The notes beneath the pieces were generated by a model. It saw nothing but the letters and a program-made list of their open reading frames with translations, was not told where the DNA came from and ran no database searches. A program made the translations under genes and the position numbers. Shown in pieces: positions 3,943-57,155 of a DNA stretch of 64,000 bases. This DNA is from Suipraeoptans intestinalis (GTDB taxonomy: Bacteria; Bacillota; Clostridia; Lachnospirales; Lachnospiraceae). The stretch spans positions 1,480,001-1,544,000 of the forward strand of contig NZ_VULY01000018.1 of NCBI RefSeq assembly GCF_009696485.1, in the 5' to 3' direction. Every line of letters starts with the position of its first letter. Position 1 is the first letter of the stretch.

Positions 3943-4608
3943 TTAGTCGGGATCTGTCAGCAGTTCAAAGTAATTTTTTCGGAAATCAATGAGATGCTCC
4001 TGCTTCATTTTGCTTAGTTCCTTTGAAAGAGCGGTGCGGTCTACATTTAGATAGTCGGCCAGCTGCTGACGGTCAAAGGGGATGGTAAAGCAATTTTTAT
4101 GTGTCTTAAGAGATGTGGTATGCAGGTATGCCAGCACACGCCCGCGGATGGTTTTGGGCGCCGTGTGAAAACTGCGCTGGGACAAAAGCAGATTTTTCTG
4201 GAAAGATAGAGACAGCAGGCTGGACAAAAATTTAAAGGCCCAGGAAGTGTTGATGGTCTGCAGCTCTTTTAAGGTACGGACAGTCAGGAACAGGATGCGG
4301 GCAGGTCTGTCTGCAGATACATCCACCAGCAGAACCTCAGAGGGGAGGAGGGCGTAGGTTTCCGCAAAAAACTGCCCTTCCCTGACCTGGCTTAGGATGG
4401 TCCGGCTGCCCCAGACGTCATTGATCTCTATGGTAACGCTTCCGGAAAGAACAAGCCCCAGCTTTTCCGTGCTGTCACCGGCATGAAAGATCAATTCTCC
4501 TTTCTGGAATTCTTTTTCCTGCGCGTTCAAAGAAGACAGGCAGGAGTGGATTTCCTCGAGAGTCATGTCCTGAAAAAGCAGCGTGTTTTGTAAAAAATGA
4601 ATGTCCAA
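3943..4608 (-). CDS. Crp/Fnr-family transcriptional regulator (221 aa)
   Basis: N-terminal cyclic-nucleotide-binding-type beta barrel (about 10-125, with the GELIFHAGD turn), dimer helix, and a C-terminal winged helix (about 150-215) with FDRQQLADYLNVDRTALSKEL as helix-turn-helix. No N-terminal cysteine cluster is visible, so it is not a classic Fnr iron-sulfur sensor. The start is TTG at 4608, five bases after a strong AAAGGAGG; no better ATG exists. It is separated from glgD by a terminator and so is probably its own unit. It converges on the corrinoid methyltransferase operon and may regulate it, but no operator was found to prove that. Confidence 0.85.
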   Translation of the reverse strand: MDIHFLQNTLLFQDMTLEEIHSCLSSLNAQEKEFQKGELIFHAGDSTEKLGLVLSGSVTIEINDVWGSRTILSQVREGQFFAETYALLPSEVLLVDVSADRPARILFLTVRTLKELQTINTSWAFKFLSSLLSLSFQKNLLLSQRSFHTAPKTIRGRVLAYLHTTSLKTHKNCFTIPFDRQQLADYLNVDRTALSKELSKMKQEHLIDFRKNYFELLTDPD

Positions 4609-46162: not shown

Positions 46163-46294
46163 AAAACTCCTCCTTTTTACATAGAGTCTACGCTAAGACC
46201 ACCTTATCGAAACCGTCTGGATTTGTCAATGTGATTTGGCAGTTATGACAGTACCCACAGGTTAAGAAGCAAGAGTCAGACCTGTGAAACCTGA

Positions 46295-46477
46295 CTGAAG
46301 TATGGTACGACAAATAAAGGCATTGGAGAAATTGGTATTCACAAGTTGGAGCATTCATTGGGAGAGCAAGATGATAAGAGAGAGAATTTATTGTTCAATT
46401 ATATCGTAAAGAAAGCGAATGCCATTGTATGTACGTTAATTAAAGAGCGGAATTTTGAGAAGAAGCAGATAAAATAA
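46295..46477 (+). pseudogene. Open frame of 60 codons without start, AT-rich, unidentified
   Basis: Bounded by stops, reading LKYGTTNKGIGEIGIHKLEH... to ...LIKERNFEKKQIK. No ATG in frame and no ribosome site. Codon use fits the acquired block. Probably a 3' fragment of a lost gene; not identified. The rest of 46163-46603 holds only the TetR promoter region and nothing else visible. Confidence 0.3.
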
Positions 46478-46521
46478 ATGCTGTCTACTTTTAAAGATAT
46501 TTTAAAAAAATAAAAAAATGG

Positions 46522-46550
46522 TTGTTAGATAGTGCTAACTGATATATAAT
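46522..46550 (+). promoter_or_regulatory. Sigma-A promoter of the TetR-led operon
   Basis: TTGTTA (46522-46527), 17-base spacer containing the inverted repeat GTTAG/CTAAC, perfect TATAAT (46545-46550). Confidence 0.75.
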
Positions 46551-46584
46551 ACCGTTAACGATATACCGACGATACCGTCGATAC
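46549..46584 (+). promoter_or_regulatory. Two adjacent dyads, probable TetR operator
   Basis: ATACCGTTAACGATAT (46549-46564) is a palindrome with one mismatched pair; ATACCGACGATACCGTCGATAC (46563-46584) is an imperfect palindrome with perfect CGACG/CGTCG arms. They lie between the -10 box and the ribosome site of the TetR gene, the usual place for autorepression. Confidence 0.55.
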
Positions 46585-46603
46585 AGGAGAGGAGGGAATA
46601 GAT

Positions 46604-47194
46604 ATGTGTGCTGTTAAAAGGTTGAGTGAAGTAGAAAGAAAAAAAGAGATTATGAATTCAGCTGCAAAAGTAATTGCCGCAAAAGGGTTTGAAAAGACAA
46701 CTATGGAAGAAATTATTGCGGGAACAACTCTATCTAAGGGTGGTGTCTATCACTATTATGGAAGTGTTATCGAAATCTTTAAAGATATCATGATTCATGG
46801 AATTGAATATAGGAATGAAGTTATAAAAAAACATTTGGGTGGGTCTGAGAAGATTGTGACAAAGGAGTTTATGGCCAAAGAACTTGTAACAAAGATGCTT
46901 GACGATAATCCATACATGCCACTTTACATTGAGTTTCTAATTGCTAAAAAAAGAAATCCAGAGTTGAACAATCTCATGACAGAGCTACAAGAACAGACAA
47001 AAAAAAGATTTAAAATTGTTATGAGTGAAGTTCCAAGATGGATATCTGATTCTAATAGTTTTCAATTTGTTACCGACTTTATCAATGCAATGATCCTTGC
47101 ATCAGATGTTTTGGAGGCTAGAGAAAATTTCACTAAAAATAGACAGATTTTAGAACAAATGATTATTTGTATATTTGAAAATGGAGCGCAGTAA
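46604..47194 (+). CDS. TetR/AcrR-family regulator (196 aa)
   Basis: N-terminal helix-turn-helix (about 10-58: RKKEIMNSAAKVIAAKGFEKTTMEEI and LSKGGVYHYYGS), then a variable all-helical ligand domain. GAGGAGGGAATAGAT precedes ATG. It heads the acquired transporter block and very likely represses it through the dyads right upstream. Ligand unknown. Confidence 0.92.
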   Translation: MCAVKRLSEVERKKEIMNSAAKVIAAKGFEKTTMEEIIAGTTLSKGGVYHYYGSVIEIFKDIMIHGIEYRNEVIKKHLGGSEKIVTKEFMAKELVTKMLDDNPYMPLYIEFLIAKKRNPELNNLMTELQEQTKKRFKIVMSEVPRWISDSNSFQFVTDFINAMILASDVLEARENFTKNRQILEQMIICIFENGAQ

Positions 47195-47196
47195 AA

Positions 47197-47421
47197 ATGA
47201 AGGTGTATAAAAAATTATGTTCCTATGTTCGGATGAAATGCTAAGAGAGTGTTTATCAAATTACTTATAATATTTTTGTGAATGGGATTATGGAAGGTTG
47301 TGAAATCTTAGATGGAGCAAGGAATAGCTTTATAAGTGATAGAGAGTTCTTTGTAGAAACTATAAAGCTGTCTATTGATAGCTGTGATAAATATAAAATA
47401 AATTTTTTAACTAGAAGTTAG
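47197..47421 (+). pseudogene. 74-codon frame broken by an in-frame stop, unidentified
   Basis: Starting at an ATG two bases after the TetR stop, the frame reads MKVYKKLCSYVRMKC, then TAA, then ESVYQITYNIFVNGIMEGCEI... to a stop at 47419. Only one stop interrupts it and the downstream part has normal protein composition. Could be a decayed extra regulator or a small conserved gene. No ribosome site, so expression is doubtful. Confidence 0.35.
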
Positions 47422-47449
47422 TATACACTAATCAAAAGGAGGTAAATCA

Positions 47450-49366
47450 ATGAAGAAGAAAAAATATAATGATGAATTGCTTGACTCTGCTTCGGGCAGC
47501 AAGACGCTCAAGCGAAATGAAAATCTGATAAAAGAGGTAGAGAGTCTAAACTTGGATGTTCCTGATGAGATTATGCAACGAATCGAAAGTGATGTTGAGC
47601 AAAGTGAAAAACAGCCCAAAATTAGTATGGGCGGTTTAAACAAGGCACTTATGAGTGTAGCTCCGGAGTATAAAGGTAGGATGCGACTTTCTGTCATTTT
47701 TGCCTGCATTGGAGAACTTTTTAGCTTTTCTACTTATTTCTTCAGTGCCTATGCGGCAGGGTGGCTTATAAAAAATGCCGGCGGTAACCCGGTCAGTTTT
47801 GATGCACTTCTGAAATATGCTTTTTTTGCAATAGGTTCACTGCTCCTTTACTTTATATTTACCGGATTTAGCACAACCATTTCACATAAAACATCATTTT
47901 CTATACTCGCAAAACTTAGACAGACTTTATTCGAGAAGTTAAAGGTAATTCCAATGGGATACTTGGTGGATAATCCTGTAGGTAAAATTAAGGTGATTAT
48001 CATGGATCGAGTTGCAGATATGGAAGATTGGGTAGCTCATCTTATGCCGGAACTGCCCAGTAGACTTTTACATCCGATACTTTGTGTAATCATTTTATTT
48101 TTCTTAGATTGGCGTATAGGGGTATCAATATTTGTACCACTGCCAATTGCCTTTATCGGAATGGCCACTATGATGTACAAATATCGCAGCAGGATGGCTG
48201 TGTGGTTATCAAGTTATGCCAATGTTGCTGATAGAAGTGCTGAATATGTTCGTGGAATCCCTGTAATCAAAGCATTTGCACAAGATAAAGTTTCGTATGG
48301 AAAATTTGCAGATGCGGTAAAATTTTATCATTTCTCTACGATGAAGTGGTGGAAACAAAGCTGGTTTGGCAAAGCGCTGATGACTGCAGCAATGATGACA
48401 CCACAGATAGTGAGTATGCCTTTAGCTTTTTATTTATATGGGAAGGAACAAATCGGCATCGAAACCCTGCTTTTAGCACTTATTCTGCCGATTGCCATTC
48501 TCCCACAGGCTTTTGCAATCATGATGAGCTTTGAACTTTTCCAGATGGCATCCAATACTTGGGTATCCATACAAGAATTGCTTGATATGCCTGCCCAAAA
48601 ACGCCCTGATTCAGAAAATAAGGTTACTATAGACAAGAATAAGGGGATCAAATTTGATCATATAAGTTTTTCTTATCATGATGGAACGGAGATATTGCAT
48701 AATATTTCTTTTGAAACAAAGCCGGGAGAAGTAACTGCAATTGTAGGGCCTTCGGGTGGGGGAAAATCTACAATTGCAAAGCTTTTAGCAGGCTTTTGGG
48801 ATCAGTCATCGGGCACGATTTCTCTTGGGGGTGTGGATACAAAGAAAATTTCATTTCAACAGCTTGCAGAAGAGATTTCTTTCGTATCACAAGATAATTT
48901 TCTCTTCGATGTGAGTATCAGGGATAACATAAGACTTGGTAAGCCTTATGCGACCGAAGACGAAATTGTTGCGGCGGCAAAAGCTGCTCATTGTCATGAT
49001 TTTATTATGTCACTTCCTGATGGCTATGATACTAAAGCAGGGGAAGCGGGCGGAGCAATGTCAGGAGGGGAACGACAACGAATAACTCTTGCCAGAGCAA
49101 TTTTGAAGCCTGCATCAACAATTATTTTAGATGAAGCAACCGCTTATGCCGATCCGGAAAATGAAGCACTCATTCAAGAAGCAATATCCAATCTCGTAAA
49201 GGGGAAAAATCTTGTGATGGTCGCCCATAGATTAAATACCATTAAACAGGCACACCAAATCATCCTAATCGATAAAGGTCAAATTATAGCCAAGGGTAAA
49301 CATGAGGAGCTTATGGAAGAATCGCTCTATGCAAGTCTTTGGAAACAATATTTGGGAGAGGAGTAG
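47450..49366 (+). CDS. ABC exporter half-transporter with fused ATPase, subunit 1 (638 aa)
   Basis: N-terminal cytoplasmic extension of about 70 residues, six-helix type IV membrane domain (about 70-370), then ATPase: Walker A GPSGGGKST near 437, signature MSGGERQRI near 540, Walker B IILDEATAYADPENE near 560. Paired with the next gene, three bases downstream, as a heterodimer. Such pairs include IrtAB/YbtPQ-like siderophore importers and multidrug exporters. AAAGGAGGTAAATCA precedes ATG. Confidence 0.92.
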   Translation: MKKKKYNDELLDSASGSKTLKRNENLIKEVESLNLDVPDEIMQRIESDVEQSEKQPKISMGGLNKALMSVAPEYKGRMRLSVIFACIGELFSFSTYFFSAYAAGWLIKNAGGNPVSFDALLKYAFFAIGSLLLYFIFTGFSTTISHKTSFSILAKLRQTLFEKLKVIPMGYLVDNPVGKIKVIIMDRVADMEDWVAHLMPELPSRLLHPILCVIILFFLDWRIGVSIFVPLPIAFIGMATMMYKYRSRMAVWLSSYANVADRSAEYVRGIPVIKAFAQDKVSYGKFADAVKFYHFSTMKWWKQSWFGKALMTAAMMTPQIVSMPLAFYLYGKEQIGIETLLLALILPIAILPQAFAIMMSFELFQMASNTWVSIQELLDMPAQKRPDSENKVTIDKNKGIKFDHISFSYHDGTEILHNISFETKPGEVTAIVGPSGGGKSTIAKLLAGFWDQSSGTISLGGVDTKKISFQQLAEEISFVSQDNFLFDVSIRDNIRLGKPYATEDEIVAAAKAAHCHDFIMSLPDGYDTKAGEAGGAMSGGERQRITLARAILKPASTIILDEATAYADPENEALIQEAISNLVKGKNLVMVAHRLNTIKQAHQIILIDKGQIIAKGKHEELMEESLYASLWKQYLGEE

Positions 49367-49369
49367 AAT

Positions 49370-51106
49370 ATGGAGTTTATAAAATTATCATTCAAATTAG
49401 CGGGACAGTATAAGAATCGACTGAAAGCGGGGATGTTACTTATCTTTCTTCAAAATGCTTCCATGTTGTTTGGATTTTTCGCTCTATTCCTTGCATTCGG
49501 CTGGATGAATGAAACTACCATCGGGCATATGTGGACGATTTTGGGAGTATTGTTTGCATCCTTCCTTTTTAATTTTCTGACAGGGTGGGCGAAAAGCGGT
49601 CTTAGCGACGGTGTTTTCTTTGGGATTTTCAAGGATTACCGACTTACAGTTGGCGAAAAACTTAAAAAAGCACCTATGGGATATTTTGCAGAACAAAGTT
49701 TATCAAGAATTATGGCGGCATTTACCAATGTTATGAAGAGCCTTGAAAATTACTCCGCAATGAGTATAGACTTTGCTGTTTCCGGTATTTCAATATCCTT
49801 TTTCCTTTTAATCGGAATGTTTAGTGTAAATATTAAAATCGGAATTTTAACTTTCATTTGTCTAATTCTTATTTGGCTTTGCGTATTTCTCATGGTAAAT
49901 CAGGCAAAGAGAGAGATTGCACGTGAACATACTGCCATTACCAAGGTGGGAGACGCTCTGGTTGACAGTATCAGTGGCGTTCCTGTGCTTCGTAGTTTTC
50001 CTTTTGCGGACAAGGGCGTTGTGGAAGAAATTCACTCTAAATTAAAAAATGCTTCTGAGGAACTTAGAGTTTCCCAAGTACATTTCGAGATTGTTTTTGT
50101 TATTTATGCTAGAATTTTTTCTACTATTATCAATCTCTCAAGCCTGCTTGTTACACTGTTTTCTTGCTATCTTTATACGAAAGGGGAAGTTTTATTACCA
50201 CAAGCACTCACTGTTTCGGCTGCTGGCTTTATGATTTTTGGCGGCTTAAAACAACTTGAGAATGCGGCTATCCTGATGGTGAAAAATCCTGCCAATATGC
50301 AGTATTTGGATGAGGTCTTAGATATTCCTGAAATCAGTGACGGGACTTTAGAAGTTATGGAAAACCAAGAGATCGTCTTTGATAAGGTGAGTTTTAGTTA
50401 CGACAAAAGAAATACTGTTTTAAAAGATCTTTCATTTACGATTCCTCAAGGCTCAAAGACAGCTATTGTAGGACCGTCGGGTTCCGGAAAGACTACAATT
50501 ATCAATTTAATATCTCGTTTTTATGATGTTGACAGTGGTGAAATCAGATTAGGGAATAAGGATATACGAGATTATAAAGTAGAAAGATTACTAAAAAAAC
50601 TTTCACTTGTTTTCCAGGATGTGTATCTTTTCCAAGATACCATAGAAAACAATATTCGCTTTGCAAACCCTAAGGCAAGCCATGAAGAAGTAGTGGAGGC
50701 TGCCAAAAAGGCTCGTTGCCACAATTTCATTATGGAACTTCCTTATGGTTACAACACTATGGTAGGCGAGGGTGGAAGTTCCCTTTCCGGCGGAGAAAAA
50801 CAGCGAGTTTCTATTGCAAGAGCGTTACTTAAAAATGCACCGATTATTCTTTTAGATGAAGCGACCAGTTCTGTTGACCCTGAAAATGAGCATGAGATTT
50901 TAGCGGCGATCGAAGAATTATCCAAGGGGCACACTGTTATTTCCATAGCGCACAGACTTTCTACCGTGAAAAAAGCGGATCAAATCTTGGTAATTGATAG
51001 TGGTACATTGGAGCAAGTGGGAAAACACAATGATTTGATCTGCAAGGAAGGAATTTATTCATCGTTTATTCAAGCACGAGAACGTGCGGCTAATTGGACA
51101 TTGTAG
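49370..51106 (+). CDS. ABC exporter half-transporter with fused ATPase, subunit 2 (578 aa)
   Basis: Six-helix membrane domain (about 15-310) and ATPase with GPSGSGKTT near 366, LSGGEKQRV near 475 and IILLDEATSSVDPENE near 495. Both subunits retain the catalytic glutamate after Walker B, so both ATP sites could be active, unlike many heterodimeric exporters with one degenerate site. GAGAGGAGTAGAAT precedes ATG. Confidence 0.92.
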   Translation: MEFIKLSFKLAGQYKNRLKAGMLLIFLQNASMLFGFFALFLAFGWMNETTIGHMWTILGVLFASFLFNFLTGWAKSGLSDGVFFGIFKDYRLTVGEKLKKAPMGYFAEQSLSRIMAAFTNVMKSLENYSAMSIDFAVSGISISFFLLIGMFSVNIKIGILTFICLILIWLCVFLMVNQAKREIAREHTAITKVGDALVDSISGVPVLRSFPFADKGVVEEIHSKLKNASEELRVSQVHFEIVFVIYARIFSTIINLSSLLVTLFSCYLYTKGEVLLPQALTVSAAGFMIFGGLKQLENAAILMVKNPANMQYLDEVLDIPEISDGTLEVMENQEIVFDKVSFSYDKRNTVLKDLSFTIPQGSKTAIVGPSGSGKTTIINLISRFYDVDSGEIRLGNKDIRDYKVERLLKKLSLVFQDVYLFQDTIENNIRFANPKASHEEVVEAAKKARCHNFIMELPYGYNTMVGEGGSSLSGGEKQRVSIARALLKNAPIILLDEATSSVDPENEHEILAAIEELSKGHTVISIAHRLSTVKKADQILVIDSGTLEQVGKHNDLICKEGIYSSFIQARERAANWTL

Positions 51107-51143
51107 AAGCCGAAAAATAAAAAATTTTAATAGGAGGATATAA

Positions 51144-51725
51144 ATGAAAGAAAAGAAGCTAAAAATTAAAGATCTAGTAACTATTGGGGTATTTGCTGTT
51201 ATCTATTTTATAGTGATGTTTGGTGTAGGAATGATTGGAATGGTGCCTGTTTTATTTTTAATCTATCCTAGCATTCTTGGTGTTGTGACAGGTACCATCG
51301 TTATGTTATTTATGGCAAAGGTTCAAAAGCCTTGGAGTTTGTTTATATTGGGAATACTATCCCCGTTATTAATGTTTGCCATGGGACATACTTATGTAAT
51401 AGCAGTTCATGCTCTTGGCGTTATGGTTATTGCTGAAATGATCAGAAGAGCGGGGGAATACCATTCTTTTAAACACAATATGATGGCTTTTGCCATTTTT
51501 AATACATGGATTTGTGGATCTTTAATGCAAATGCTATGGGCAAAAGAAAAATATATTGAATTATCAATGATGATGGGCAAAGAATATGTAGATGCATTAG
51601 AAAAGTTGATTACCTATCCACATATGGCATTAGTGTATGTAGGTGCTGTAATCGGTGGAATTATAGGAGCATACATTGGAAGGGCACTTCTTGAAAAACA
51701 CTTTAACAAAGCGGGGATTATTTAA
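51144..51725 (+). CDS. ECF transporter S component, MptD/Trep-like (193 aa)
   Basis: Membrane substrate-binding subunit of an energy-coupling factor importer, six helices, starting KLKIKDLVTIGVFAVIYFIVM. Similar in layout to the family annotated as MptD putative ECF S components. It confers substrate choice; vitamin, metal or metal-chelate are possible. AGGAGGATATAA precedes ATG. Its stop shares a base with the next start. Confidence 0.8.
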   Translation: MKEKKLKIKDLVTIGVFAVIYFIVMFGVGMIGMVPVLFLIYPSILGVVTGTIVMLFMAKVQKPWSLFILGILSPLLMFAMGHTYVIAVHALGVMVIAEMIRRAGEYHSFKHNMMAFAIFNTWICGSLMQMLWAKEKYIELSMMMGKEYVDALEKLITYPHMALVYVGAVIGGIIGAYIGRALLEKHFNKAGII

Positions 51726-52417
51726 TGGTGGTTGCGGAAAACAACAGATTAAATCCCAATCCCATAACAAAGTTTTTTGTTGTGGGATTGTTGGGTTTAA
51801 CTGTGGTGCATTCTATTCACCTTATTTTGGAATGGGCAGTCATATTTATTATTTCCATTATGTATTTAATAAATGGATTTAGAAAAGATGCAGTAAAAAA
51901 TATCATAGTCTTTGGTATTTTATTTCTTGCACCAAATTTTAAGATACTAGCTCAGTTGCCAATCATAATAAAGCTGCTCTTTTCTTTGATTTTTGTGATT
52001 CGTATGTTTTACATCCCTTATGCAGCAGGGAAATTCCTAATTAAAACATCAGATGTGGGGAGCATTATTTCATCTATGGATGCTTTAAAGATACCAAAAG
52101 TTGTATCTGTTCCTGTGGCAGTGATGTTTCGATTTTTTCCGTCTTTTGTGGAGGAAAAGAATAACATCAAAATGGCAATGAAAATAAGGGGGATAGATAC
52201 AAAAAATCCTTTGAAATACTTGGAGTATGTAGCTGTACCGCTTTTAATTATTTCATCTAATATCGCTGATGACATCTCCAAGGCTGCAGAAACGAAATGT
52301 ATTGCAAATCCCATAGAGAAAACAAGATATATTACAGTGGGGGTAGGACTGATTGATTTTATTTATGGGCTAACGATGGCGGTAATAGTGATAGGAGGAT
52401 GGTTATGCTTGAAATAA
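51725..52417 (+). CDS. ECF transporter T component (CbiQ-like, 230 aa)
   Basis: Membrane coupling subunit. Several hydrophobic helices and a cytoplasmic segment MAMKIRGIDTKNP (about 155) with the A-R-G type motif that touches the ATPase. It begins in the stop codon of the S component and overlaps the ATPase gene by 13 bp, so the three are coupled. Confidence 0.85.
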   Translation: MVVAENNRLNPNPITKFFVVGLLGLTVVHSIHLILEWAVIFIISIMYLINGFRKDAVKNIIVFGILFLAPNFKILAQLPIIIKLLFSLIFVIRMFYIPYAAGKFLIKTSDVGSIISSMDALKIPKVVSVPVAVMFRFFPSFVEEKNNIKMAMKIRGIDTKNPLKYLEYVAVPLLIISSNIADDISKAAETKCIANPIEKTRYITVGVGLIDFIYGLTMAVIVIGGWLCLK

Positions 52418-53799
52418 AAGAGTTTTCTTTATCCTATGGAGAAAATAGAGTATTGGAGGATATTTCCCTAAAAGCCCTTGAGGGAGAATGTATTTTACTC
52501 ACGGGAGAAAGCGGAAGTGGAAAATCTTCCGTTATTAATTCAATTAATGGAGTAGCTTTTGCCTATGAAAATGCTAGTAGCACAGGAAGTATTAAAGTCA
52601 ATGATAAGCAAATAAAAGACTTAGAGATTTATGAAATATCACTAGCTATTGCTAGCGTTTTTCAAAATCCAAAGACGCATTTCTTTAACGTCAACACGAC
52701 ACTTGAACTCTTATTTTATTTAGAAAATATTGGATTAGTGAAAGAAGAAATGGATGTTCGTATGGAAGAAATGTTAAGAATTTTTCATATAGAGCATTTA
52801 CTTGGACGTAGTATTTTTGAATTGTCCGGTGGTGAAAAGCAAATTTTATGTATAGCTTCTTGCTACATCTCAGGGTGTAAAATCATAGTTCTCGATGAAC
52901 CATCTGCCAACCTGGATGATAAACATACTGATGTTATAACAGAAATGCTGAAAATTCTGAAGAGGAAAAATGTAACACTTATTCTTGCGGAGCATCGAAT
53001 TTACTACCTAATGGATTTGGTTGATCGTATTTACTTGATTCACCAAGGAAGGATTCAGCAGGCCTTTAGTAAAGAAGAGTTTTTATCTTTGTCAAACGAA
53101 TATTTACTTATGCGTGGACTTCGTTCAAGACAAAAAACACTTTTAACTAAGAATAAAATACATCAAGGAAAAGATTTTATGATTCGAACGATGAAAATTG
53201 AGTTTGAAGATAAATGTAAGCTAAGGCTTGACAATGTATCTTTTGATTTGGGAAAGATTTATGGCGTTGTTGGCAGAAATGGTTGTGGCAAGTCTACTTT
53301 TTTGCGTGTAATGACAGGGCTAAATAAAAAAGATAAGAGTGAAATTGTTTTTAGAAGTAAAAAACTAAGCAAAAGAGAAAGAATAAAAAATTCAGCCTTG
53401 GTCATGCAAGATGTAAATCATCAACTTTTTACAGACTCCGTAGAAGAAGAATTAAAACTTGGAGTTAAGGATTTAAGTCAAGACAAAATGGATAGAGTAC
53501 TTATTGGCCTTGGACTTACTAAATTAAAAGACAGGCATCCCATGAGTTTATCAGGAGGACAAAAACAAAGGGTGGCGATTGCTTCCGTTTTATGTAAAAA
53601 TTCGAGATTTATATTTTTTGATGAACCGACAAGTGGGATGGATTACAAGAATATGCTAAGAATTTCAAAATTGATAAAGCAAATGAAAACAGAAAATAAC
53701 ATCATATTTCTTGTTTCTCATGACATTGAATTTCTAAATGCAACAACAGATTATGTCCTTTGCTTAGAGGACTTTCAAAGCTATAAACATTCAGAATAA
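52405..53799 (+). CDS. ECF transporter double ATPase (464 aa)
   Basis: Two ABC ATPase domains in one chain. First: GESGSGKSS near 35, LSGGEKQIL near 142, IVLDEPSANLDD near 162. Second: GRNGCGKST near 295, LSGGQKQRV near 385, IFFDEPTSGMD near 405. Replaces the usual EcfA1/A2 pair. The start is ATG at 52405, six bases after AGGAGG; the ATG at 52399 touches the ribosome site. Confidence 0.88.
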   Translation: MLEIKEFSLSYGENRVLEDISLKALEGECILLTGESGSGKSSVINSINGVAFAYENASSTGSIKVNDKQIKDLEIYEISLAIASVFQNPKTHFFNVNTTLELLFYLENIGLVKEEMDVRMEEMLRIFHIEHLLGRSIFELSGGEKQILCIASCYISGCKIIVLDEPSANLDDKHTDVITEMLKILKRKNVTLILAEHRIYYLMDLVDRIYLIHQGRIQQAFSKEEFLSLSNEYLLMRGLRSRQKTLLTKNKIHQGKDFMIRTMKIEFEDKCKLRLDNVSFDLGKIYGVVGRNGCGKSTFLRVMTGLNKKDKSEIVFRSKKLSKRERIKNSALVMQDVNHQLFTDSVEEELKLGVKDLSQDKMDRVLIGLGLTKLKDRHPMSLSGGQKQRVAIASVLCKNSRFIFFDEPTSGMDYKNMLRISKLIKQMKTENNIIFLVSHDIEFLNATTDYVLCLEDFQSYKHSE

Positions 53800-53922
53800 T
53801 TACGAATAATGTTCAAATGAAATAAAAAGGAATTCAATAAGGCAAGGGATGTATGTAGAACTTTAATAAGTGAGAGAATTAATAATGTGAACAATAACAC
53901 ATTAAAAATAAAGGAGTTGCTT

Positions 53923-55275
53923 ATGAAAAAAGATGTGAAAGAACAATTATTAACCAAAAAGCCGATAGATTTACTATTTCAGTTATCTGTTCCGGCAGTT
54001 ATAGGGATGATAGTGATTGGACTTTACCCGTTGATGGATGGAATATTTGCAGGGAATATTATTGGTCAAAATGCTATGACTGCTTGTGGGATTGCAATGC
54101 CGCTTACTTTTTTCAACAGCGGTGTTTCAACCTTACTTGGCGTAGGTTCTGCTTCTGTTTTATCACGAGCAATTGGAAAAGGCGATCAGAAAACTGTAGA
54201 TAAAATCATGGGAAATCTGATTTTCTGGGTGATTTTGTTTTCCGCAATCATAACGGTTGGAGGAATACTGCTTGCACCACATTTTTTAAATATGGTAGGC
54301 GCAACAGGGGAAATCAAAGCTTATGGCATGAGATACCTGAGAGTGATTTTTATTGGCTCCATCTTTGTAAACTTCACACAGTCCGCAAACATGGTCATGC
54401 GTGGCGAAGGACTGATGAAAAAAGCCATGATGATTATGGGGCTTGGAGCTTTACTAAATATTATTCTTGATCCGATTTTAATGACAATCATGGGGGAATA
54501 TGCAATTGAAGGTGCTGCTATTGCTACCGTTACAGCTCAGTTTGTTCAAGCGATCGTAACGTTGCACTACTTCTTGAAAAAGAGTAAAGTTGTTAAAATT
54601 CATAAGATTAAGTCTGATACGGAAATAAAAAAAGAAATGTTCGGAGTAGGTTCATCTGCGATGCTGATGCAACTTCTGTTTATGATTCAGCAGACCATGC
54701 TGTATAAAATGGCATTTAAATACGGGGGAGATAGCAATGGGATTTTGATGGCAGCTTCATTAAGAATGTATGCATTTTCATTTATACCACTTTGGGGAAT
54801 GAGTCAGGGGTTACAACCTGTAGTAGGAACGAACTTTGGAGCAAAGAAATATGACAGAGTAAGACAGGCGATGAAAGTATTTTCTATTGGCGGGCTTATC
54901 CTTGCTGTTATGTTCTGGCTTCCATCTTTATTGCTATCCAGTCAAGTACTTTCTTTGTTCGGCGTAGAAGCAAACATTATTGCACAAGGAGTTGGTAACT
55001 TTAGATTATTCTACTCTGTGTTTAGTTTATATGGGATAATGGTTATGAGTATTACCTTTTTCCAATCAATCGGAAACGGGAAGAAAGCAGGAATCATTGT
55101 GATGCTTAGACAACTGTTCCTGTTTGTTCCCGCTATGATTTTCTTACCAATGATATTTGGTATAAATGCGGTATGGTTTACGCAACCACTTATAGATTTC
55201 ATAATGATTGTTGTTGGAATACTTATGATGATTGGGGAGCTGAATAAGATGGGAAGAGAAAAGGCGGTCAATTAA
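53923..55275 (+). CDS. MATE-family efflux transporter (450 aa)
   Basis: Twelve-helix antiporter, two six-helix bundles. PIDLLFQLSVPAVIGMIVIGLYPLMDGIF at the start is typical of the NorM/DinF-like bacterial group. The ATG at 53923 follows AAAGGAGTTGCTT; a GTG 36 bases earlier is less likely. Uses sodium or proton flux to expel drugs or metabolites. Last gene of the acquired block. Confidence 0.9.
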   Translation: MKKDVKEQLLTKKPIDLLFQLSVPAVIGMIVIGLYPLMDGIFAGNIIGQNAMTACGIAMPLTFFNSGVSTLLGVGSASVLSRAIGKGDQKTVDKIMGNLIFWVILFSAIITVGGILLAPHFLNMVGATGEIKAYGMRYLRVIFIGSIFVNFTQSANMVMRGEGLMKKAMMIMGLGALLNIILDPILMTIMGEYAIEGAAIATVTAQFVQAIVTLHYFLKKSKVVKIHKIKSDTEIKKEMFGVGSSAMLMQLLFMIQQTMLYKMAFKYGGDSNGILMAASLRMYAFSFIPLWGMSQGLQPVVGTNFGAKKYDRVRQAMKVFSIGGLILAVMFWLPSLLLSSQVLSLFGVEANIIAQGVGNFRLFYSVFSLYGIMVMSITFFQSIGNGKKAGIIVMLRQLFLFVPAMIFLPMIFGINAVWFTQPLIDFIMIVVGILMMIGELNKMGREKAVN

Positions 55276-55335
55276 AGTTTGTTAAAAAATACTTAGATAT
55301 TCATATCTATCCTGTTCACCTCTCTTCTGAAATGG

Positions 55336-55382
55336 GTGTATGTTGTTTAAACAACATACACTGGCTGTTGTCGGACTATAAT
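55336..55382 (+). promoter_or_regulatory. Perfect 26-bp palindrome plus -10 box upstream of the DUF438 gene
   Basis: The palindrome spans 55336-55361 (left half GTGTATGTTGTTT) with no mismatch, centred at 55348.5. A perfect TATAAT lies at 55377-55382 with no -35 box at the right distance. If transcription starts near 55389, the centre is at about -40.5, the position of a class II Crp/Fnr activator site. Confidence 0.65.
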
Positions 55383-55414
55383 GGAGGTATGAAAAAGACA
55401 AGGAGGCAAATGCG

Positions 55415-56938
55415 ATGGCAAAGAAAATAGATTTCACAAAAACAGTGTTTGAGCTGACGGAAGAATACCCGGAACTGATAAAGATTATGGCGGATCTCGG
55501 GTTTTCAGAGATCACGAAGCCGTCGGTTTTAAATTCGGTGGGAAGGATGGTCACCATACCCAAAGGGGCGAAGATGAAGCAGATCTCCATGCTGGATATT
55601 GTCACAGCGCTGGTGGCAAATGGATTTGAGCTGGAGGGAGAGATGCCCTCTGTGGTTTCCGCTGAAAATCCCGCAGAGCAGTCGGTTTTGCAGGACGCAA
55701 AAAAAGCGGAACCTCAAAGCCGTAAGGAGCTGCTAAAGAGTTATCTCAAAAGATTGGGAAATGGCGAGGATCTGGAAAGTGTCCGGATGGATTTTGTGAA
55801 GCACTTTTATGCCGTGGAGGCCACAGAGATCATGGAGGCAGAGCAGGAATTAATGAAAGAGGGGACGCCCATTACGGAGGTACAAAGATTGTGTGATCTT
55901 CATTCTGCCCTGTTTCACGGAGCGACCACGGAGGAAAAGCTTGTCGGGGAGGAAAAGGATGCAGAAAAGTCCCTTCTGGTAAAAAAAGCGAGGGAAGAAC
56001 TGGCAAAAAGAGACGCTTTCCCTCAGAAGGATTATTCAGACAAGCAGGCACGTGCGGCAGCCCTAGCTGAGATTCCGGGACATCCCCTCTATACCTTTGT
56101 AAAAGAAAATGAAGCGCTTTCCGGATTACTTGTACAGTTTCGGGAATCCGAAACAAAGGAACTTTTTGCCTCTATCCGTGAGCTTTCCATCCATTATGCA
56201 AAAAAGGGAGATCTGCTCTATCCTCACCTAAAGGTCAAATATGGGATTTCAGGACCATCTGATGTGATGTGGACAGTAGATGATGAGATCCGGGATGAGT
56301 TGGGAGCGCTGGGCAAAGAACAGGAGCAAAGTGCAGAGTGGAACACACGCCTGGATGCTGTGTTGAAGCGGGCGCAGGAAATGATCTACAAGGAGCAAAA
56401 TGTTTTGTTCCCCATCTGTGCAGTAAACTTTACAGAGGAGGAATGGTACGGGATTTATCAGGATTCCAAGGATTATGCCACCTGCTTTGGCGTGGAGAAC
56501 GAAACGTGGGAAGAAGCGGAAAAATACCGACCCGGGAAAATTGTGGCGTCGGAAGGTGAGATCGTAATGCCCGGCGGCCATATGACGCTTCCGCAGCTTA
56601 CCGCCCTGCTGAACACCATACCGCTGGAGATCAGCTTTATTGATGCGGACAATATTAACCGTTTTTTCAACGAAGGCCCCAAAGTGTTCAAACGTCCCGG
56701 CATGGCCATTGACCGAGAAGTGTTTTCGTGCCATCCGCCTAAGATAGAACCTATGGTGCGTTCTATTCTTGAGGATTTCCGCAAGGGTGTCAGGGACAGT
56801 GTTCCGGTGTGGATGGAAAAAAACGGCAGGCTGATGCTGGTTACCTATATGGCAGTCAGAGATCGTGACCAAACCTATCTGGGGACGGTAGAGCTGGTGC
56901 AGGATATGGAATTTGCAAAAGCACATTTTCAAAAATAG
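55415..56938 (+). CDS. DUF1858-DUF438-hemerythrin-PAS protein (507 aa)
   Basis: Four-part cytoplasmic protein of anaerobes: DUF1858 (about 1-72; TVFELTEEYPELIKIMADLGF), DUF438 (about 95-165), a hemerythrin-like helical region (about 215-345; His residues in IHYAKKGDLLYPHL), and a PAS-like C-terminus (about 385-500; ISFIDADNINRFFNEG). Proteins of this type are thought to sense or handle oxygen, NO or redox state through a di-iron or haem centre. AGGAGGCAAATGCG precedes ATG. Its promoter carries the large palindrome. Confidence 0.88.
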   Translation: MAKKIDFTKTVFELTEEYPELIKIMADLGFSEITKPSVLNSVGRMVTIPKGAKMKQISMLDIVTALVANGFELEGEMPSVVSAENPAEQSVLQDAKKAEPQSRKELLKSYLKRLGNGEDLESVRMDFVKHFYAVEATEIMEAEQELMKEGTPITEVQRLCDLHSALFHGATTEEKLVGEEKDAEKSLLVKKAREELAKRDAFPQKDYSDKQARAAALAEIPGHPLYTFVKENEALSGLLVQFRESETKELFASIRELSIHYAKKGDLLYPHLKVKYGISGPSDVMWTVDDEIRDELGALGKEQEQSAEWNTRLDAVLKRAQEMIYKEQNVLFPICAVNFTEEEWYGIYQDSKDYATCFGVENETWEEAEKYRPGKIVASEGEIVMPGGHMTLPQLTALLNTIPLEISFIDADNINRFFNEGPKVFKRPGMAIDREVFSCHPPKIEPMVRSILEDFRKGVRDSVPVWMEKNGRLMLVTYMAVRDRDQTYLGTVELVQDMEFAKAHFQK

Positions 56939-57039: not shown

Positions 57040-57051
57040 GAAGAAAAAGAA

Positions 57052-57136
57052 ACAGGGGAGCTTGTACTGGCAGGCTGAGAGGAAGTGATCAACTTCGACC
57101 CTTTAACCTGATGCGGATAATGCCGTCGTAGGAAGT
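57052..57136 (+). ncRNA. TPP riboswitch (THI element)
   Basis: Conserved pieces in order: GGGGAGC entry, GGCTGAGAGG (J2/3 CUGAGA that binds the pyrimidine), GACCCTTTAACCTGAT, then GGATAATGCC (pyrophosphate side) and CGTAGGAAGT. Thiamine pyrophosphate binding would fold P1 and allow the terminator at 57156 to form. The closing block is CGTAGGAAG instead of the usual CGTAGGGAA. Confidence 0.93.
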
Positions 57137-57155
57137 AAAAGAAACGATTACAAGG

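Follow-up and report, generated by a model that had tools for sequence, protein, structure and literature searches.

YtfE/RIC (ScdA) proteins are di-iron proteins of nitrosative stress. The predicted protein encoded at the locus described here may resemble them in its hemerythrin-type domain and in the probable tie of its gene to nitrosative stress, and differs in its DUF1858-DUF438-hemerythrin-PAS architecture. For the regulation of such genes in anaerobes the closest described system is the HcpR/HcpR2 regulon, which according to the parts of Rodionov et al. 2005 (PMC1274295) covered here is governed by regulators of the Crp/Fnr family, has hcp and ferredoxin genes as targets and hemerythrin-like genes as predicted targets, and uses a dyad operator whose sequence depends on recognition-helix residue 181. 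Our locus shares the regulator family, the hcp and ferredoxin targets, the hemerythrin-like genes and the dyad operator with the system described in those parts. In contrast to the common HcpR2 pairing given there, GTAAC-N4-GTTAC with Pro181, the pairing here is TGTTGY-N4-RCAACA with Ser/Thr181, and the same parts of the paper note that the C. difficile and C. thermocellum proteins, which have Ser181, go with motifs that differ.

The window is the whole stretch of DNA analysed, 64,000 nucleotides in length, and the features that concern us are as follows.

55336..55361, no strand assigned: perfect 26-bp palindrome GTGTATGTTGTTTAAACAACATACAC (sequence, palindrome search)
55341-55356, within the palindrome: core operator TGTTGT-TTAA-ACAACA
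55377..55382, plus strand: -10 hexamer TATAAT, no -35
55389, plus strand: predicted transcription start, placed from the -10 position
55415..56938, plus strand: DUF1858-DUF438-hemerythrin-PAS_10 protein, 507 aa (translation, domain search)
3943..4608, minus strand: candidate activator, an HcpR-type Crp/Fnr protein with the helix NVDRTALSKEL (domains, helix, tree), called 3943 below

All 26 of the 26 bases of GTGTATGTTGTTTAAACAACATACAC are palindromic, and no other perfect palindrome of the 64-kb window is as long, the runners-up measuring 22 and 20 bp. Its dyad centre lies 28 bases from TATAAT and at about -40.5 for a predicted start near 55389. A promoter scan of the plus strand from the palindrome to the ATG returned no -35/-10 promoter, and an AAGGAGG-type ribosome site is located at ~55400, upstream of the ATG at 55415. 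The sequence-only reading of this DNA had described a 26/26 palindrome about 40 bp before the predicted start, with a perfect -10 and no -35, and each of these elements was confirmed in the sequence. With a dyad near -41 and a -10 but no -35, the promoter appears to be of the class II Crp/Fnr type; it has the single dyad around -41.5, the missing -35 and the good -10 of class II Crp/FNR-dependent promoters, and differs from them in the operator sequence and in a spacing that is one base less. The genome search for the palindrome core proposed in the earlier reading was run and yielded a single mismatch-free copy of the 16-bp core in the 2.6-Mb genome (exact search), together with 54 one-mismatch matches versus 51 for the control. 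As this count equals that of the control, the one-mismatch matches are mostly due to chance, and because the exact core is unique no regulon can be read within the genome itself, so relatives were used instead.

Judged by sequence comparison, the palindrome very probably serves an HcpR-type Crp/Fnr activator, most likely 3943, as the operator from which it drives the DUF438 gene. Public genomes supplied 54 DUF438 relatives, 47 of them with enough upstream sequence. A site with at least 11/12 matches to TGTTGYNNNNRCAACA was present within 300 bp of the start in 23 of these 47 relatives, compared with 0.86% of random 300-bp segments of those loci (n=2574) under the same criterion, and this conservation rules out chance as the origin of the palindrome. 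The site centre mostly lies 63-90 bp before the start, and the conserved core is TGTTGY-N4-RCAACA. At its outer ends the window palindrome reads GTAT...ATAC, which matches a flank that is common beside the right half-site of the relatives, so that the window site resembles an idealised form with this flank on both sides. Relatives lacking the site are mainly those of Veillonella, Prevotella-type and a few other loci. In Veillonella (L050-L053, L055, L057, L066) a GTATA-type sequence ending in TGGATACAG precedes DUF438, and the two loci checked (L050, L066) have a -10-like hexamer 30 bases away.

When the relatives were aligned by dyad centre, the -10 lay exactly 29 bases away in nearly every one, a spacing that is also seen in hcp and flavodiiron promoters. 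In 19 non-redundant DUF438 loci the weighted -10 score at offset 29 was 6.84, other offsets averaged 2.41 and peaked at 3.79, and none of 200,000 permutations reached the offset-29 score. A distance of 29 bases from the centre to the -12 position is by definition the -41.5 class II arrangement (PMC7349173). The Crp/Fnr class II geometry claimed in the sequence-only reading is supported by the fixed spacing in relatives, with the window, at 28, one base below their norm of 29, which we counted against the main reading.

Intergenic copies of the motif in 23 genomes with DUF438 relatives precede hcp in three of them (G007, G043, G041), a Crp/Fnr gene divergent from a ferredoxin gene in G007, a flavodiiron gene in G052, a cupin gene and further Crp/Fnr genes; the many intragenic matches were set aside. 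In a blind scan, 397 genomes of the family were searched for the site followed by 21 bases and TANNNT, with the reversed pattern as control; 110 genomes matched, and among the matches listed there were more than 140 real ones versus ~22 for the control pattern. Of 30 loci inspected, 23 lead into nitrosative-stress-type genes: frdX-type ferredoxin (6), DUF438/DUF1858 (5), cupin (4), hcp (3), hemerythrin (2), and one each of flavodiiron protein, Crp/Fnr and rhodanese, with ten identities assigned by Pfam and the remainder from sequence signatures. Among the five DUF438/DUF1858 proteins, two (L261, L277) lack the DUF438 architecture; L261 combines DUF1858 with a solute-binding-type domain (Pfam SBP_bac_6) behind the same operator, and L277 looks alike. 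The site-bearing gene set is, by its predicted membership, an HcpR-type nitrosative/redox regulon comparable to that in the parts of PMC1274295 covered, and its content lends support to the earlier claim that DUF438 is under Crp/Fnr control of a redox or NO type. The hcp gene of the genome under study (G000:C37:825736-827343) is preceded by AGTGGT-AATA-ACAACG, a degenerate match (9/12) with TATACT at 29; this weak site suggests a link of hcp to the regulon, and its weakness also counts against the main reading.

The protein encoded at 3943 contains PF00027 (cNMP-binding-type sensor) and PF13545 (Crp HTH), both above cut-off; an FNR-type cysteine cluster was sought in its translation, which has no N-terminal CxxC. 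Each of the 30 genomes searched contains a relative of 3943, and in about half of them the identity is 45-58%. Its orthologues adjoin DUF438 in eight genomes (G031, G032, G033, G045, G050, G046, G048, G056) and hcp in G034, G038 and G032, some adjoining both genes, and hcp is adjacent or close to them in G034, G038, G032, G031, G033, G050 and G051. Several orthologues have the site immediately upstream of the gene that encodes them. In the tree, 3943 is grouped with hcp-adjacent regulators with a support of 100/98, within a larger clade (98/88) that includes regulators adjoining DUF438 or hcp and has the recognition helix R-[S/T]-[A/N]-[L/M]-S-x-E-L. In G034 and G038 the best relative of 3943 has the identical NVDRTALSKEL helix, and both genomes have a perfect TGTTGT-N4-ACAACA before DUF438 (L021, L027). 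Of the four Crp/Fnr proteins found, 3943 alone shows the R-[S/T]-A-L helix; with the genome at 97% completeness, one more Crp/Fnr protein may have been missed. Upstream of the 3943 gene itself no site was found, and neither DUF438 nor hcp is near it in its own genome; both points count against the main reading. The sequence-only reading had named 3943 as a possible regulator, and by helix, tree and orthologue neighbourhood it is the best candidate regulator of the DUF438 palindrome, albeit with no site of its own and no hcp beside it here. Sequence comparison supports that reading in all its steps, and it was right in essentials.

It is improbable that the operator and regulon are as described and that another Crp/Fnr protein of the genome acts on them, above all L085 (G000:C37:628.8 kb), which among the four Crp/Fnr genes also resembles HcpR-type proteins and is a second HcpR-like regulator. 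Its helix is NTTRPSLSREL, and R-P-S-L helices pair with GTAAC-N4-GTTAC in the parts of PMC1274295 covered. L085 adjoins a desulfoferrodoxin gene that has CGTAAC-ATTT-GTTACA upstream (L250 1501-1516, G000:C37:627984) with a -10-like TATCCT at 29. The other two proteins are L086, with the Crp-type A-R-E-V-V-T-R, and L088, which resembles neither.

The operator type tracks the helix in relatives too, in favour of the main reading: regulators of the VSRPSLHREL type adjoin DUF438 in L025 and L034, where the operators are TGTATC-N4-GATACA (11/12 and 12/12), and the DUF438 operator of L043 is TGTAAC-N4-GTTACA in a genome whose best Crp-type match has VTRPSLSREL, a helix/operator pair as expected for HcpR2 from the covered parts of PMC1274295. 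In all three loci the -10 is again at 29. There are two exceptions: in L045 an R-S-A-type regulator adjoins DUF438 but the 300 bp examined contain no site, and in L033 a site is present and the sole Crp/Fnr gene in the locus has a different helix. Because operator type follows the helix and L085 has a GTAAC-type site nearby, the DUF438 operator fits 3943 and not L085. We consider it somewhat likely that the three operator types (TGTTGY, TGTATC and TGTAAC half-sites), at one fixed class II position and each with its own HcpR-type helix, are a record of co-evolution of operator and helix, and that DUF438 is a core nitrosative-stress protein in Lachnospiraceae and relatives. The canonical HcpR2 assignment, with a Pro181 helix and GTAAC-N4-GTTAC, was dropped for a helix that reads R-T and an operator that reads TGTTGT.

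Slightly less probable still than a role of L085 is a regulator that acts as a repressor released by NO and not as a class II activator. Sites located right at the start of the regulator genes L211-L213, L218, L219 and L225 suggest repression there; however, the centre keeps a constant distance of 29 bases to the -10 at DUF438, hcp, FDP and frdX, which is the hallmark of class II activation. The Rex redox repressor site is TTGTTAA-N4-TTAACAA, and a Rex operator was rejected, as the half-site differs and the regulon is that of hcp/frdX. That the palindrome is a terminator or RNA hairpin ending the MATE gene, which the earlier reading had named as a possible refutation, is hardly credible: it is located 60 bases 3' of the MATE stop codon and its RNA folds well (-19.5 kcal/mol, z -4.1), but good folding is expected of any perfect palindrome, the stem has no following U-run (T-run in the DNA), the terminator scan does not report it, and the sequence is kept before DUF438 in genomes with different upstream genes.

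Returning to the HcpR-type activator, the proposed mechanism draws on the conserved site, the fixed -10 spacing, the regulon content, the regulator neighbourhood and the match of operator and helix, all of which come from the comparison. A dimer of the regulator, most likely 3943, would bind TGTTGT-N4-ACAACA centred near -41, and once bound would stand in for the absent -35 and recruit RNA polymerase to TATAAT; we infer both the binding by 3943 and activation rather than repression. The DUF1858-DUF438-hemerythrin-PAS gene would then be induced along with the distant hcp, probably by nitrosative stress (NO or nitrite), NO being taken as the signal because of what is known of HcpR and because of the gene content. 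The DUF438 protein may handle or sense NO or damaged iron centres.

The literature searched contained no paper that ties DUF438 to HcpR, and neither TGTTGY-N4-RCAACA for Ser/Thr181 HcpR nor DUF438-hemerythrin-PAS as a regulon member was found described in that literature, which excluded RegPrecise and Table S1/Figure 3 of PMC1274295. As the covered parts of that paper note the Ser181 motifs as differing, the TGTTGY motif may already be present in its tables. The novelty appears to lie in the operator variant and in DUF438 being a conserved part of the regulon, within a kind of system that is already known. The assignment gives the DUF1858-DUF438-hemerythrin-PAS family a testable job, defence against nitrosative stress in anaerobic gut bacteria, and with a precise operator, a named candidate regulator and a spacing rule the whole regulon should become readable in Lachnospiraceae.

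The palindrome lies just beyond the end of a low-GC block (~46.2-55.3 kb, GC 0.29-0.40 vs ~0.50 around) that contains a TetR regulator, two ABC exporter genes, an ECF-type transporter set and, as its last gene, the MATE gene; the block (46200-55300) was probably acquired. Searches of viral and plasmid sequences asked whether the palindrome belongs to the MATE gene or to the low-GC block. The block had no match among plasmids, relatives of the MATE gene had none among viral contigs, and a family-wide search with the MATE gene and palindrome DNA returned, outside the genome itself, matches to the MATE gene only. On the 3' side of DUF438, a TPP riboswitch (Rfam RF00059) is located at 57044-57151, ahead of a thiamine gene cluster.
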